From positions 1-53,805 of the forward strand of contig JASEGR010000008.1 of the NCBI GenBank assembly GCA_030017955.1: 53,805 nt of DNA, read 5' to 3'. Below are positions 1-9,615 of this stretch, one piece after another. The stretch's first letter is position 1; each line of letters begins with the position of its first letter. The notes beneath the pieces are model-generated. The model had not been told where the DNA came from. It saw nothing but the letters and a program-made list of their open reading frames with translations, and did no database searches. The position numbers were made by a program, and so were the translations under genes. The stretch is from Candidatus Eisenbacteria bacterium (lineage in GTDB: Bacteria > Eisenbacteria > RBG-16-71-46 > JASEGR01).

Positions 1-251
1 AGCGTCAGAGGGGCGAGAAGCCCCTATGAAAGTGTCGTGTCCAGGGGCAAAGACACATAGACAACGGAATTTCCGGGACACGAGACTAACGCGCTCCGCT
101 TTGAAGAAGATGGCTTATCGCGGGAGGCCGACATAGAGATGCATGGGCAGTTGGAATTCCCCGCATACGAACCATCACCCTCCGATCATTCCCGAATGAG
201 CTTCATCTCCCGGCCGTATCCTGCGCGTAAATCCACAAAAGGAGAGCGAGT
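1..251. other. Leading non-coding stretch with two hairpins
   Basis: I see no convincing gene here. A perfect 6-bp stem AGGGGC/GCCCCT with a GAGAA loop lies at 9-25, without a T-run, and a second inverted repeat TCGTGTCC/GGACACGA pairs 35-42 with 76-83. These could be the tail of an upstream transcription unit or leader structure for the following glgC pair. The only clear signal near the next gene is a GGAGAG ribosome site at 241-246. Confidence 0.4.
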
Positions 252-1514
252 TTGAGGGGCGCCGTCGCGATGGTTCTTGCCGGAGGCAGGGGCGAGGCCC
301 TCACTATCCTGACGAAGCACAGGCCGTCTTCGGCTCTGCCATTCGGCGGGAGGTACAGGATAATAGATTTTGCCCTCAGTAACTGCGTGAACTCCGAGAT
401 CTTCAGGATCGGAGTTCTGACGCAGTACTCACCTGTTTCGCTGCGCGACCACATAGGCATAGGCCAGCCGTGGGATCTTGACAGAAGAGACGGTGGTGTG
501 AAGCTTCTTCAGCCTTTCGTCAGGAGCGATCGAAGCAACTGGTATCGCGGCACGGCGGACGCCATCAGGCAGAACCTGCACGTAATTGACAGGTCAGATG
601 TGAAGACCGTGCTGATTGTCTCGGGCGACAGCGTTTACAAGATGGACTACAGCGAAATCCTCTCATTCCATCAGAAACGCGGTGCGAAGGTTACGCTTGT
701 TGTCACTCCGGTGTCGAGAGAGAAATCGGACAGGTTCGGAATGGTCGACCTGAATGCAGACTCCCTGGCGACGTCGTTTGAAGAGAAACCGTTGAACAAA
801 AGAGAAGGGCTGGCTTTCACGGGAATCTACGTCTATGATGCGAAACTCCTCACAAAGGAAGTTACGTCAAACCCGGGGCTCTTTGACCTCGTCAGGAATT
901 TCGTCGTACCTATGATCGAGAAGGGAGAACCGGTCCTTGGCTATGTTTTCCGGGATTACTGGGAGGACATGGGAGAGATATCCGCCTACTACGATGCCAA
1001 CATGGCGCTTCTTTCCAAGAATTCGCGGTTCAACCTTTACGATCCTGATTGGATAATCTACACGAAGAGTGAAGAGAGGCCGCCTGCCAAGCTCGGAGCC
1101 GGAGCAGAAGTGTCTGCCAGCCTGGTTGCCAATGGCTGCGAAATAGAAGGGACGGTCCTGAACTCAATCCTCTTTCCGGGCGTGGTCGTTGGAAGAAACG
1201 CACTGGTCAAGGATTCGATTCTCATGCACGGGACGGTGGTCTCAAGGAATGCAAGAATCGAGAAAGCCATTCTTGACAAGAGAGTCCGTGTTGGAGACGC
1301 GGCAGTAGTTTCGCCGGAAGGGGATCTTTCACCAAATAGCCGGTTTCCGGCATATCTCTCCTCCGGCATTTCTATTCTCGGCAAGGGAACAGTCGTTCCC
1401 GGTGGCTTCCGGATTCTGGGAAATTCTATTGTCGAGGGCGATCTCGGCCGGCTTCTGCCTTCTAAGGAGAGCGAGATTTGCTCCGGGAGCTGTTTGATCG
1501 AGGAGAAGAAATAG
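252..1514 (+). CDS. ADP-glucose pyrophosphorylase paralogue, probably non-catalytic/regulatory
   Basis: A 420-residue GlgC-family protein: nucleotidyltransferase domain (about 1-270) followed by a left-handed beta-helix of hexapeptide repeats. The family makes ADP-glucose from ATP and glucose-1-phosphate for glycogen synthesis. The N-terminal loop reads GGRGEALTILT, so the invariant Arg of G-x-R-L is Ala16, and the Lys of the downstream RAKPAV motif is Ser26 (RPSSAL). The HDFG and DIG-T motifs are also lost ('DMGE'), while the SGD motif and EEKP are kept. The same Arg and Lys positions distinguish catalytic small from non-catalytic large subunits in plants. TTG start with GGAGAG upstream. It lies 4 bp before the canonical glgC, suggesting co-translation and a hetero-oligomer. 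That the protein is regulatory is inference. Confidence 0.9.
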   Translation: MRGAVAMVLAGGRGEALTILTKHRPSSALPFGGRYRIIDFALSNCVNSEIFRIGVLTQYSPVSLRDHIGIGQPWDLDRRDGGVKLLQPFVRSDRSNWYRGTADAIRQNLHVIDRSDVKTVLIVSGDSVYKMDYSEILSFHQKRGAKVTLVVTPVSREKSDRFGMVDLNADSLATSFEEKPLNKREGLAFTGIYVYDAKLLTKEVTSNPGLFDLVRNFVVPMIEKGEPVLGYVFRDYWEDMGEISAYYDANMALLSKNSRFNLYDPDWIIYTKSEERPPAKLGAGAEVSASLVANGCEIEGTVLNSILFPGVVVGRNALVKDSILMHGTVVSRNARIEKAILDKRVRVGDAAVVSPEGDLSPNSRFPAYLSSGISILGKGTVVPGGFRILGNSIVEGDLGRLLPSKESEICSGSCLIEEKK

Positions 1515-1518
1515 GGCG

Positions 1519-2799
1519 ATGGGGCTTGAATATGCAATGATTCTTGCGGGAGGTATGGGGAAGAGGCTGTGTCTTCTCTCGGAGGGAAGGGCGAAACCGG
1601 CCGTTCCTTTCGGCGGAAAGTACAGGATCATAGATTTCACTCTAAGCAATTGCGTGAACTCCGGAATCTATGACATTGGAATCCTCACCCAGTACCGGCC
1701 CGGGTCCCTGCATGACCATATCGGGATTGGCAGGCCGTGGGACCTCGACAGAAAGAACGGTGGTGTGAAGGTCCTTCAGCCGTATATCGGTTGGAGGGAA
1801 AGCGATTGGTACAGCGGTACGGCCGACGCCGTCTATCAGAATCTTTCGGAAGTGACAGACAGGGGAGTGAAATACGTTCTGGTTCTCTCCGGCGACCACG
1901 TTTACAGCATGGACTATGGGAGACTCTTCCGATGTCACATCAGGGCAGGAGCAGAGGTTACGATTGGCGTGGTCGATGTTGACAGGAGCGAGACGAAACA
2001 TCTGGGGATGGCTGAGCTGGATGCGGACGGGAAGGTCCTGGGCTTTGAGGAAAAGCCTGAGAGCGCAAGGTCTCTTACGGCTTCTATGGGAATCTATGTC
2101 TTTACTGCCAGCGCCCTCATCGAGGCCCTGAAGGAAGATTCCAGGGATGAACACAGCAGGCATGACTTTGGACGCGACATACTTCCTGTCTTCGTGAAAA
2201 AGGGGACTGCCTATGGATTCAGATTCAGAGGATACTGGCAGGACATAGGCACGCTTGATTCGTACTTCAGGGCAAACCTTGACCTTGTTCACAAGAGTTC
2301 GTTGATCAAGCTTGAACGCGGGAGATGGGTTGTGCATACCCGCGATCTGGATATGCCGCCCGCAAGATTCGGAAAGAAGTCAGTTGCAAGAAAAAGTATC
2401 ATAGCAGGGGGCTGCGTGGTTAACGGCTCCGTCACTGAGTCTGTCCTTTTTCCGGGGGCCATTGTTGAAGAGGGTGCCCGCGTTACGAACTCAATCGTTA
2501 TGAACGATTGCTGGATCGGGCCCGGTGCCATTCTTGACAGAGTGATTCTCGACAAAGAAGTTCATATTGGAAACAGGTCGGTCATTGGTGCGGGCGAGGA
2601 GATGACACCGAACAAGGAATGTCCGGAGCACCTCAGCAGCGGCATAACAATCGTCGGGAAGAATGCAATTCTACCGGATGGCATAGAGGTAGGGAGAAAC
2701 TGCAAGATCTATCCGGGAGTCAGGCCGCATAATTTCCACTCTGCAAAGATAGCGAGCGGTGAGACGATTCGTGGAGAACTACTGAAGTTGTGGAGCTGA
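1519..2799 (+). CDS. glgC: Glucose-1-phosphate adenylyltransferase (catalytic copy)
   Basis: A 426-residue ADP-glucose pyrophosphorylase, the committed step of bacterial glycogen synthesis in the cytoplasm. It keeps Arg16 (GGMGKRL) and Lys26 (RAKPAVPFGG), the YRIIDF motif, SGDHVYSMDY with the metal-binding Asp, the FEEKP motif, SMGIYVF, HDFGRDILP and YWQDIGTLDSY. The C-terminal part, from about residue 290, is a beta-helix of hexapeptide repeats. ATG start 4 bp after the stop of the paralogous gene, so the two are almost certainly one transcript. Its last 21 bp overlap the 3' end of the opposite-strand transglycosylase gene. Confidence 0.96.
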   Translation: MGLEYAMILAGGMGKRLCLLSEGRAKPAVPFGGKYRIIDFTLSNCVNSGIYDIGILTQYRPGSLHDHIGIGRPWDLDRKNGGVKVLQPYIGWRESDWYSGTADAVYQNLSEVTDRGVKYVLVLSGDHVYSMDYGRLFRCHIRAGAEVTIGVVDVDRSETKHLGMAELDADGKVLGFEEKPESARSLTASMGIYVFTASALIEALKEDSRDEHSRHDFGRDILPVFVKKGTAYGFRFRGYWQDIGTLDSYFRANLDLVHKSSLIKLERGRWVVHTRDLDMPPARFGKKSVARKSIIAGGCVVNGSVTESVLFPGAIVEEGARVTNSIVMNDCWIGPGAILDRVILDKEVHIGNRSVIGAGEEMTPNKECPEHLSSGITIVGKNAILPDGIEVGRNCKIYPGVRPHNFHSAKIASGETIRGELLKLWS

Positions 2800-6095: not shown

Positions 6096-8642
6096 TTGCT
6101 GATAGCCCTTGATGTGCCCCTTCTGAAAATTGTACCGCCTCTGCTTCTCGGAATATTTCTAGGTAGAAAATTCGCGCCGGAGGGTTTCCTTCTTTCAGCA
6201 GCATCGCTGGCCTTTCTTTTGCTGGGAAGCCTCCTCTCCGTGCCGGGCAAGAGGCGGCCGCTTTCAATTGCCGCAAACCTCTTGTTCCTCCTGTCAGTTG
6301 TTACCGCCGGAGCTCTGAGGTATCAGCTAAGTACCCCTCGGGACGGAGGTGGCGCCCTTCGGGAGAATTCGGGCCATGAATGCACGGTCGTCGGAAGAGT
6401 CTCCAGCTTTCCGGTGGTAGAAGAGGGCACGACCAGCTTCAAGCTCGAAATTCTCCAAACCAAAAATGAAGACTCTGGAGTTTCACGCAGGCATCTTTGC
6501 GCAAGAGCAGTCCTTGCCGGAAAATGGCCCACCATCCGCTACGGAGACGTGCTGAAGGTCAAGGGGGTTCTGGAAGCGCCAGCCACACAGAGGAATCCAG
6601 GGGGCTTTGACGAGAAACGATACCTGCTCGAAAGGGGAATGTCTGCGAGGTTCAGAAATACGAAGCCGTATGCCGTTGAGCTGGTTGGGAGAGGTTTCGG
6701 GAATACATTCCTGGGCAATGTTTCGCATCCTCTCAGGGTTTTCTTCGAAGGCAGCCTCTCGAGAAATATCACGGGGGAGCCTCTTTCACTTCTCAAGGGC
6801 GTCATATTCGGAGAAGACAAGGAAATCTCTGATGAGACAATGCTCGAGTTCAGGCGCACAGGCATTGTGCACATTCTCTCGGTATCAGGTCTTCATGTTG
6901 GCATCGTGTCCGCATTCGTAATGTTCCTCTCACGGCTCTTTGGGTTCAGTACGCGTTCAGCCGTGATAGTCACCGGTATCAGCACCTGGCTGTATGCTTC
7001 ACTTTCAGGGTTCTCGCCGCCAAGCGTAAGGGCCAGCATCATGGTGAGCGCGGTGATTGCAGGTTTCCTGATGAAGAGATTTGTCTCGGTGCGGAACTCT
7101 CTTCTCTCCGCCTGTCTTGTAATGCTCGTCATTAGACCCTCCAACATCTGGGACATCGGATTTCAGCTTTCGTTTCTCGCGACAGCAGGAATTCTGTTTC
7201 TCTCCAATCCACTTGAGAGAATCTTTCTGAGACGCAAAGCGATCAAATGTGAACGCTTTCTTATTAAAGGAATCGTTGTTTCCGTCTCCGCGCAGCTTGC
7301 AACCGCCCCTCTCCTCATGTACCACTTTGGCTTCGTCAGTTTTTCGGCCATCATTGCAAACATAATCATCGTTCCCCTGGCGGCACTGCTCCTTCCGATT
7401 GCTCTGGTTACTCCGATGGCTGCGGTCCTCTCATCAACATGCGGCGAGATGATGTCTGGCTGTGTCTGGTTTCTCACAGAAGCTGTCCTGCTCTCGACTG
7501 CAACGTTGTCGAAAATGCCTTTTGTGTTGCCCTATGTAGTAAAACCCCTTGCCTGGCAGGTCGTCCTCTACTATGGCGGAGCCATTCTTATTGCCTCAAA
7601 GAAAACTGATGTGAGGAGGACCTTGATTGGCCTCGCAATAGTCATTCTTTCCGGCACGCTCATGCTCCTCGGTGTTCCAAGAAAGAGAATCACGGGTTTT
7701 GAAGCGAATTTTCTTGATGTCGGGCAAGGAGACTGTGCTGTCCTTCTTTTCCCTGCGTGGAAGACCGTTGTGATAGACGGAGGCGATGTGAAGGGTGGCT
7801 ATGATGCAGGGGAGAAGGTTCTCATCCCATTCCTAAGGGAGAGGCGGATAAGAAAGGTCGACCTCGCTGTAGTTTCTCACTGGCACACGGATCATGCGGG
7901 CGGACTCCGTGCATTGGCAATGAGAGGAATGGTGCGAGAAATTGCGGAACCTGGGTTCTACGCCGGAGACAGCGCTTCGGTTCAATTGATGAACGACATC
8001 CGATCCAAGGTCCCGACATTCGTACCGGCTTGGGGAGAGACCCTGCTGGAAGAAGAAACATCCAGAATCATTGTTGTCCACCCTTCTCCGGAGTTCGCAA
8101 GCGACCTTCAGGATACGAGCGATTTCGCACTGAACGAGAAGTCGCTGGTCGTCCGCGTGGAGGTTCGGGGGTTCGATCTTCTTTTTGCGGGAGATCTTTC
8201 GTCAAAAGGGGAGGACTGGCTCTTGAGCGAAAAAGCCCTCAAATCCGTCCAGGTTCTCAAAGTTCCACATCACGGAAGCAGGCACTCGTCAACGGAGCAG
8301 TTCATCCGGACATTGGCGCCTTCACTATCCGTGGTGTCTGTCGGCAAGAACAATAGATTCGGGCATCCCTCAGAAGAGGTGATTCGAAGACTTAATCATG
8401 CGGGGCGCGTCCTCAGAACCGATGCTGATCATGCAATACGGGTCTATGCCGACCACGGCCAAATGCGCGCAAGAACCATGAGGAAACAGAATGAAGATGT
8501 TTTCAGGATTTCTTTCCCTGGACGAACCTTCCCTCCAACTTCTTCATTATCTGAGGAAGAGTCGTGTACTCCATCTCGGAAAGAGGGAGCCTGTGCGGCT
8601 CAAAAGGACCGTGCCTCCTCATATAATCAGCCACTTCCATAG
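6096..8642 (+). CDS. comEC: ComEC/Rec2 DNA-uptake channel
   Basis: An 848-residue polytopic membrane protein with the full ComEC order: N-terminal membrane segments and an OB-like external domain (DUF4131, about 1-180), the competence channel domain with many transmembrane helices (about 215-515, with VSGLHVGIVSAF), and a C-terminal metallo-beta-lactamase domain with HWHTDH (His595-His600), a GGDV motif and HHGS. The family forms the inner-membrane channel for single-stranded DNA uptake. The TTG start has no good ribosome site; GTG at 6114 is an alternative. The last 46 codons run antisense through the FBPase gene and look non-conserved, so the original stop was probably lost. Confidence 0.93.
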   Translation: MLIALDVPLLKIVPPLLLGIFLGRKFAPEGFLLSAASLAFLLLGSLLSVPGKRRPLSIAANLLFLLSVVTAGALRYQLSTPRDGGGALRENSGHECTVVGRVSSFPVVEEGTTSFKLEILQTKNEDSGVSRRHLCARAVLAGKWPTIRYGDVLKVKGVLEAPATQRNPGGFDEKRYLLERGMSARFRNTKPYAVELVGRGFGNTFLGNVSHPLRVFFEGSLSRNITGEPLSLLKGVIFGEDKEISDETMLEFRRTGIVHILSVSGLHVGIVSAFVMFLSRLFGFSTRSAVIVTGISTWLYASLSGFSPPSVRASIMVSAVIAGFLMKRFVSVRNSLLSACLVMLVIRPSNIWDIGFQLSFLATAGILFLSNPLERIFLRRKAIKCERFLIKGIVVSVSAQLATAPLLMYHFGFVSFSAIIANIIIVPLAALLLPIALVTPMAAVLSSTCGEMMSGCVWFLTEAVLLSTATLSKMPFVLPYVVKPLAWQVVLYYGGAILIASKKTDVRRTLIGLAIVILSGTLMLLGVPRKRITGFEANFLDVGQGDCAVLLFPAWKTVVIDGGDVKGGYDAGEKVLIPFLRERRIRKVDLAVVSHWHTDHAGGLRALAMRGMVREIAEPGFYAGDSASVQLMNDIRSKVPTFVPAWGETLLEEETSRIIVVHPSPEFASDLQDTSDFALNEKSLVVRVEVRGFDLLFAGDLSSKGEDWLLSEKALKSVQVLKVPHHGSRHSSTEQFIRTLAPSLSVVSVGKNNRFGHPSEEVIRRLNHAGRVLRTDADHAIRVYADHGQMRARTMRKQNEDVFRISFPGRTFPPTSSLSEEESCTPSRKEGACAAQKDRASSYNQPLP

Positions 8643-9615
8643 CCTTTTCCCTGGTCAGGTCAAAGCTCGGGTCTCTGAACATGTCAACCGGACCTTCAAG
8701 CTTCCCTTCGTTGAGCTGGAATCCGGCGGCTATGACTCTCGGGGGGCCGTCGAATCTCGTTGGAGTCGCGTCCGTGAATGAAACGGGCATGAGAGGACCA
8801 CAGTGGGAGCCTCTCATCCACCCCTCAACAAGGTGCGGGAAGGCGAATCCCTCGAGTATCTCGCCAACTGCCGGAAAGCCGCTCTGCGACCTGGCTATCA
8901 TTACAGGGTCATCCTTGCCAACGTATTTGCCTGCGATGAGACTTAGTCTCTGCGTGGAAGCGGCCGCTGCTATCTCGCCGTCCGATTTCCTGTGCACGTA
9001 GCTGACCATGAACCTGGCTGACGCTCCCAGGAAAACAAGGAGATCATAGAGTTCTTCGGGTGCGTTCAGCACGATTGACTTGTTTTCAATCACATCGAGA
9101 ACTGTGAACGAGAATCCCCCGTGCATCGATGGGTCTATGATAAGCCCCGCCGTAGTGAACGCGTCAGCGAACATTCTGAAAAGTGGAAGGTTCCACGCTC
9201 CGGGAGATGTCTTGTCCGCCATGAAGATGATTACCGGCTCACTCTTCCTTTCGACGAATTCCATCTCTGCGACGCCAGGTCCCATGCCCTTTACCGTTCC
9301 GCTGAAAGCATCCGAGAGGAGGTCCTGTCCGGCTCCGTAAAGCTTGAGTTTTTTTGCCACTTCAGTCGCTTTCACGAAAACATCCCATGCGAGGGAATGT
9401 ATCTCGTCAGATTCCACACCTTTTGAGTGAGTCATTACAAGTTCGAGATCGTCTCCACATGCAAGGACACAGGAATCAATGACAAGGCCTTTTGATTTCG
9501 CCTCAATCAGACACTCCTTTCCGCAGTCCATCAGCGCAGGATGCATGCTGGAATGGCCGACATAGCCTCCGACATCGGCCTTTATGACACTCAGAGTGAC
9601 TTTGCCGAACTTCAT
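8503..9615 (-). CDS. fbp: Archaeal-type fructose-1,6-bisphosphate aldolase/phosphatase (class V)
   Basis: A 370-residue bifunctional FBPA/FBPase that turns triose phosphates into fructose-6-phosphate in gluconeogenesis. The match runs end to end: SVIKADVGGYVGH, CGDDLELVMTH, GAGQDLLSD, GPGVAEMEF, FMADKT, DPSMHGGF, IAGKYVGKDDPVM with the Tyr and Schiff-base Lys, WMRGSH.GPLMP, RFDGPPR and YMRRHGPFEPHRL, with acidic Mg-binding residues. The family is typical of archaea and deep-branching, often thermophilic or autotrophic bacteria. ATG start overlaps the stop of the M16 gene by 4 bp (ATGA), so it is translated from the same mRNA. Its 3' end overlaps comEC by 140 bp. Confidence 0.97.
   Translation of the reverse strand: MKFGKVTLSVIKADVGGYVGHSSMHPALMDCGKECLIEAKSKGLVIDSCVLACGDDLELVMTHSKGVESDEIHSLAWDVFVKATEVAKKLKLYGAGQDLLSDAFSGTVKGMGPGVAEMEFVERKSEPVIIFMADKTSPGAWNLPLFRMFADAFTTAGLIIDPSMHGGFSFTVLDVIENKSIVLNAPEELYDLLVFLGASARFMVSYVHRKSDGEIAAAASTQRLSLIAGKYVGKDDPVMIARSQSGFPAVGEILEGFAFPHLVEGWMRGSHCGPLMPVSFTDATPTRFDGPPRVIAAGFQLNEGKLEGPVDMFRDPSFDLTREKAMEVADYMRRHGPFEPHRLPLSEMEYTTLPQIMKKLEGRFVQGKKS

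Follow-up and report, generated by a model that had tools for sequence, protein, structure and literature searches.

A tandem pair of GlgC-type AGPase genes with one degenerate copy, proposed to encode a catalytic and a modulatory subunit of one enzyme

The closest described counterpart of the locus reported here is the GlgC/GlgD pair of Firmicutes, which, in the part of the source available, differ from other bacteria in having both proteins (PMC5268466). For Streptococcus mutans the same text reports low activity for GlgC, none for GlgD and full activity with different effectors for GlgC/GlgD (PMC5268466). Another paper, in its available portion, likewise treats the arrangement as a Firmicutes trait and states that Actinobacteria and Proteobacteria lack GlgD (PMC9093745). 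Within the open-licence literature, we found no description of GlgC/GlgD-like pairs outside Firmicutes. In the accessible sections on the ADP-glucose pyrophosphorylases (AGPases) of Agrobacterium tumefaciens and potato, a homologous Arg matters for catalysis in both enzymes, its replacement by Ala lowers the Vmax of the A. tumefaciens enzyme by two orders of magnitude, and the potato large subunit is revived by changing Lys44 to Arg (PMC4643126).

The stretch of DNA analysed here (the window) is an entire contig of 53,805 bases (C8) from a genome of 3.1 Mb in 248 contigs (G000). Two AGPase genes, copy 1 and copy 2, lie next to each other on the same strand (Table 1), as the first-pass annotation of a tandem GlgC pair has it, and their products are 42% identical. 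The junction between the genes makes translational coupling likely. Both proteins consist of an NTP_transferase domain followed by a left-handed beta-helix, with GlgC as the top-scoring profile model. Against the GlgC model TIGR02091, copy 1 scored 368.3 bits and copy 2 408.2 bits, both under the NCBIfam cut-off of 424.9 bits; since 7 of 14 control genomes also fell below it, this threshold is a strict naming cut-off. Copy 1 passed the cut-off of the GlgD model TIGR02092 (236.6 bits) with 242.4 bits, and copy 2, with 236.4 bits, was just 0.2 bits short, so this score does not discriminate between the copies.

Table 1. Features of the tandem AGPase locus (positions in the window)
Feature	Position	Strand	Details
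Ribosome-binding-like purine stretch 5' of the copy 1 TTG	238..246	+	Read from the sequence; start choice inferred
Copy 1, a degenerate paralogue of GlgC and proposed modulatory subunit	252..1514	+	TTG start, 420 aa; Ala16, Ser26, Ser127, Phe189, FDLV
End of copy 1: purine-rich stretch, TAG stop (1512-1514), 4-base gap, then the copy 2 ATG	1499..1518	+	Read from the sequence
Copy 2, GlgC with catalytic residues, proposed catalytic subunit	1519..2799	+	ATG start, 426 aa

A profile search of the genome returned the two copies as the sole strong GlgC matches (407.8 and 368.7 bits), the third-best reaching 71 bits. The contig starts 252 bases upstream of copy 1. The glgA gene is on another contig (C40), so the pair stands outside any visible glg operon, and a GH57 branching-enzyme C-domain is on a further contig (C3). 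Searches of this genome did not find glycogen phosphorylase (TIGR02094) and gave nothing beyond weak partial matches for the GH13 branching enzyme. A fructose-1,6-bisphosphatase gene (PF01950) occupies positions 8503-9615 of the minus strand, at a distance of about 6 kb on the downstream side of the pair. It had no match in the relatives' flanks that were read, so its link to the pair is not conserved.

Both copies were aligned to E. coli GlgC, whose numbering is used below. Arg32 and Lys42 are two basic residues located close to the phosphates of ATP; the ATP-site Lys is the second position altered in the potato large subunit. In copy 1 (motifs LAGGRGEAL and HRPSSAL) Ala16 stands at Arg32 and Ser26 at Lys42, and in copy 2 (LAGGMGKRL and GRAKPAV) Arg16 and Lys26 are kept, exactly the assignment made at first pass. 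The reported loss of HDFG and DIGT from copy 1 was also borne out, the motifs reading FDLV and DMGE. Within FDLV, Phe240 has become Leu and Gly241 Val; copy 1 also has Ser in place of His143 and Phe in place of Ser212. Copy 2 carries the complete catalytic set (Arg32, Lys42, Asp142, Lys195, Asp239 and Asp276) and is also unchanged at His143, Glu194, Ser212, Tyr216, Phe240, Gly241 and Trp274. Copy 1 falls short of the set at Arg32 and Lys42, and retains Asp142, Glu194, Lys195, Tyr216, Asp239, Trp274 and Asp276. Judged by these residues, it has preserved both the catalytic Asp and the sugar-phosphate side of its active site.

An AlphaFold2 model of copy 1, built from a 50-row alignment, had a mean pLDDT of 94.8 and a pTM of 0.93. 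The nearest solved chains were AGPases of A. tumefaciens, E. coli and plants, with Z of 40 to 45 (top 44.6), and the matches spanned residues 1 to about 408. Nothing in the predicted model suggests truncation or unfolding. A check that copy 1 might be a nucleotidyltransferase of another pathway came out in favour of GlgC; GlgC models far outscored those of GlmU, RmlA and GalU, AGPases led the fold list, and the candidate was rejected.

The pair is conserved within the class. Among 47 genomes, namely our own and 46 relatives (G001-G046), the same kind of tandem pair as in the window is present in 30 (own included), and eight carry tandem copies of a different kind (families f4, f7 and f9; in G031 the second copy is in pieces). 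The remainder comprise one genome with both copies on separate contigs (G044), one with a 5' fragment resembling copy 1 at the end of a contig (G004), two with catalytic-type 3' fragments (G015, G033), two with a single plant-type GlgC (G005, G013), one with a partial match (G009) and two in which the search gave no GlgC match (G018, G042). In all 30 pairs copy 1 precedes copy 2 on the same strand, and the distance from the copy 1 stop to the first aligned residue of copy 2 is -4 to +8 bases. An SLT/LysM transglycosylase gene lies 3' of the pair in 12 of 13 flanks and ComEC further along in 10 of 13, some of these contigs being short.

Lys42 is lost, and Phe240 and Pro43 are altered, in every one of the 30 copy-1 orthologues. 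Arg32 is kept in 20 of the 30 and is therefore not what sets the group apart. The first-pass statement that copy 1 lost both the Arg and the Lys thus holds for the window copy and for 10 of the 30 class orthologues, and Lys42 loss is the constant part. Arg32 and Lys42 are both intact in all 30 copy-2 orthologues; the losses in copy 1 are thus not chance. Values of dN/dS were 0.09-0.39 for copy 1 (all nine genome pairs) and 0.06-0.27 for copy 2, somewhat higher for copy 1 in eight of the nine, and no in-frame stops occurred among the listed class matches. These ratios indicate that both copies are under purifying selection.

To look beyond the class, 385 genomes were searched; there were many more matches, and loci of 32 out-of-class genomes were taken from the best of them. 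A degenerate partner, alongside or apart from the catalytic copy, was seen in 24 of these 32, which is not a frequency because the genomes were selected. Residues were tallied over 159 rows, including 30 copy-1, 12 GlgD and 30 type-B degenerate sequences. Lys42 is lost in 30/30, 12/12 and 3/30 of these, respectively, and Arg32 in 10/30, 10/12 and 30/30. Asp276 is kept in 29 of the 30 copy-1 orthologues, whereas it is replaced in all 12 GlgD (by Asn in 10) and lost in all 30 type-B degenerate copies. Copy 1, GlgD and type B have thus lost different residues. The type-B degenerate copies, from Desulfobulbaceae, Myxococcota and Acidobacteriota records and from class families f4, f7 and f9, mostly have Glu or Asp at Arg32, mostly keep Lys42, have lost Asp239 and carry Tyr at Asp276. 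Other degenerate copies outside the class, whose clade is described below, share with copy 1 a changed Pro43 and an altered HDFG loop (Phe240 to Leu or Ile, Gly241 to Val or Leu); those of G325, G188, G151, G175 and G181 retain Lys42, and those of G325 and G188 combine FDLV with an intact Arg32 as well.

Several loci depart from these arrangements. Type-B degenerate copies were solitary at 12 of 12 loci (L064-L069, L071-L073, L077, L078 and L083) in records named Myxococcales, Myxococcaceae or Deltaproteobacteria; a second GlgC-like frame was absent from the DNA read, and some flanks were short. At L129, L135 and L136 (G377, G247 and G106) another kind of pair has the catalytic copy first and the degenerate copy second, the latter with SPSL/SPAL and RAAAA/RTEAA motifs and with DFG and DVGT kept. 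Other genes separate the copies at L124 (G325) and L128 (G188); in G188 the intervening ORFs are two, with 512 and 354 aa. The 40-mers common to L106 and L058/L083 are probably runs of N, which all three loci contain, and were set aside.

To trace the descent of copy 1, we compared the copy-1 and copy-2 groups (A1 and A2), the type-B degenerate and catalytic groups (B1 and B2) and GlgD. The 159-row tree was built without duplicates (L001, L002, L008, L012, L060 and L061), the unpaired L023, the broken L097 and the partial L081, L084 and L107, and the 120-row tree without the very divergent second frame of L146; trees of 73, 82 and 88 rows are hand-picked subsets of the 159- and 120-row sets. 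Type B is separate from copy 1 throughout. A single clade of A1 and B1 (p-AU 0.00048), a single clade of A2 and B2 (p-AU 0.000937) and a single origin of all degenerate copies including type B (p-AU 0.0101; 0.00758 in an earlier set) were all rejected.

The relation of copy 1 to GlgD shifts with taxon sampling, and the trees disagree. In the 88-row tree A1 and A2 are sisters at 96/96, but A1 joined to GlgD is not rejected (p-AU 0.48). With more Firmicutes GlgD rows, A1+A2 persists in the best trees, and p-AU is 0.215 for A1 with GlgD and 0.118 for a shared duplication of both subunits. These trees favour a lineage-specific duplication, in which the two copies split within the ancestry of the class, copy 1 has no kinship with GlgD and its catalysis was lost independently; this concerns descent only and is compatible with a modulatory role. 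A quick tree joined copy 1 and nine degenerate copies from out-of-class genomes in one clade at 98, with GlgD outside. When these nine were added to the best-sampled careful tree, copy 1 left copy 2 and formed a clade with the outside copies and GlgD at 95/96. On the same set, A1+A2 was 26.6 log units worse but not rejected (p-AU 0.14), nor was a single clade of the type-A pairs that leaves out GlgD, as the lineage-specific duplication would have it (p-AU 0.237). An alignment check found no sites common to A1 and A2 alone, and in separate trees of the N-terminal and C-terminal parts copy 1 and copy 2 did not group as one clade. The join of copy 1 with GlgD itself depends on active-site columns; when 29 of these were removed, it dissolved in a quick tree, where copy 1 and the outside copies still grouped at 98, with GlgD elsewhere. 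We regard the lineage-specific duplication as rather unlikely. Copy 1 probably arose by a duplication that predates the class. A further reading, which we rate as somewhat less likely than not, places copy 1 at the base of the GlgD lineage. AGPases with a catalytic and a modulatory subunit would then be older than Firmicutes and spread over many bacterial lineages, their modulatory subunit being a milder version with GGxG and Asp276 still in place; type B would be separate, and inactivation of a partner would have occurred at least twice in bacteria, besides plants. The independent evolution suggested at first pass is not established, as the copy-1 clade reaches nine out-of-class genomes. Its element of repeated loss is retained: parsimony on the 95/96 tree required five changes at Arg32 and four at Lys42 within the set of copy-1, outside and GlgD sequences, so on that tree both plant positions were hit repeatedly and the losses came in several steps.

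What, then, would copy 1 do? We think it probable that the two genes encode two subunits of one AGPase, copy 2 catalytic and copy 1 non-catalytic and modulatory; the conserved tandem, the purifying selection on both genes, the confinement of the losses to copy 1 and its intact fold all point this way. Copy 2 would convert ATP and glucose-1-phosphate to ADP-glucose, the precursor of glycogen. Copy 1 would be a folded, maintained protein with its glucose-1-phosphate site still present, and with Arg32, Lys42 and the HDFG loop gone, it would by itself be inactive or nearly so. By analogy with GlgD and GlgC, the two proteins most likely form a mixed tetramer, in which copy 1 would govern how active copy 2 is and how it responds to effectors. 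The catalytic/regulatory heterotetramer put forward at first pass is therefore kept as the best reading of the pair, in which the inactivity of copy 1, co-assembly and regulation are the conjectural parts.

Three other roles for copy 1 were weighed. That it is a functionless, decaying relic is extremely improbable; it is more substituted than copy 2 at conserved active-site positions and has the somewhat higher dN/dS in eight of nine pairs, but its ratios are far under 1 in all nine, the listed class matches are free of in-frame stops and the model is of high pLDDT. GMPPA, KJC2 and eIF2B subunits are non-catalytic relatives of this fold with sensor- or scaffold-like roles, and complexes containing them also match the copy 1 model, with Z of about 29 to 39. 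That copy 1 acts on its own as a metabolite sensor, or as a scaffold in some other process, is nevertheless very unlikely, since AGPases are the closer matches and the copy 1 gene is coupled to copy 2. Less improbable, but still unlikely, is that copy 1 forms an active homotetramer of its own, with different kinetics or with a different nucleotide or sugar as substrate. The fold and the residues of the glucose-1-phosphate site are kept, and with Asp142, Lys195, Asp239 and Asp276 present some activity is possible; against this, the window copy lacks both Arg32 and Lys42, copy 1 is strictly paired with a catalytic copy, and loss of the homologous Arg is costly in A. tumefaciens, in the available text (PMC4643126).

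Similar pairs, with distinct patterns of loss, were seen beyond Firmicutes: in the class of the window, in records named as Thermotogota, Thermodesulfobacteriota, Myxococcota and Acidobacteriota, and in further families. The degenerate-partner arrangement, best known from plants and Firmicutes, thus occurs in other bacteria too and appears to be old. Natural partners that lack Lys42 only, Arg32 only or both offer a series for testing a stepwise conversion from catalytic to regulatory subunit.

Among known systems, E. coli GalU/GalF resembles the window in having a paralogue with a lost Arg, for which the accessible text gives residual activity (PMC4643126). The likeness ends there: the nucleotide is another one, and GalF is a monomer not known as a partner of GalU. 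In plant and algal AGPases, the potato large subunit is altered at the same ATP-site Arg as copy 1, according to the part of the source at hand (PMC4643126). The plant subunits, however, cluster together in the trees, far from the window pair, and on that position a plant-type large subunit was rejected as an identity for copy 1; in the solved large subunit of Arabidopsis (9xuk_B) both Arg and Lys are kept. Type-B pairs share with the window the order of degenerate copy first and catalytic copy second, but they have their own sister catalytic clade and different residue losses. The GlgC/GlgD pairs of Firmicutes (TIGR02091/TIGR02092) come closest, with adjacent genes, one of them catalytic, and a partner without Lys42 and the HDFG loop. 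In GlgD Arg32 is mostly lost too, and at the GlgC/GlgD loci (L110, L121 and L122) glgC comes first, whereas in the window the putative modulatory gene leads. Copy 1 is also the longer protein, 420 aa as against about 370 for GlgD, and it keeps GGxG, Asp276 and the C-terminal part.
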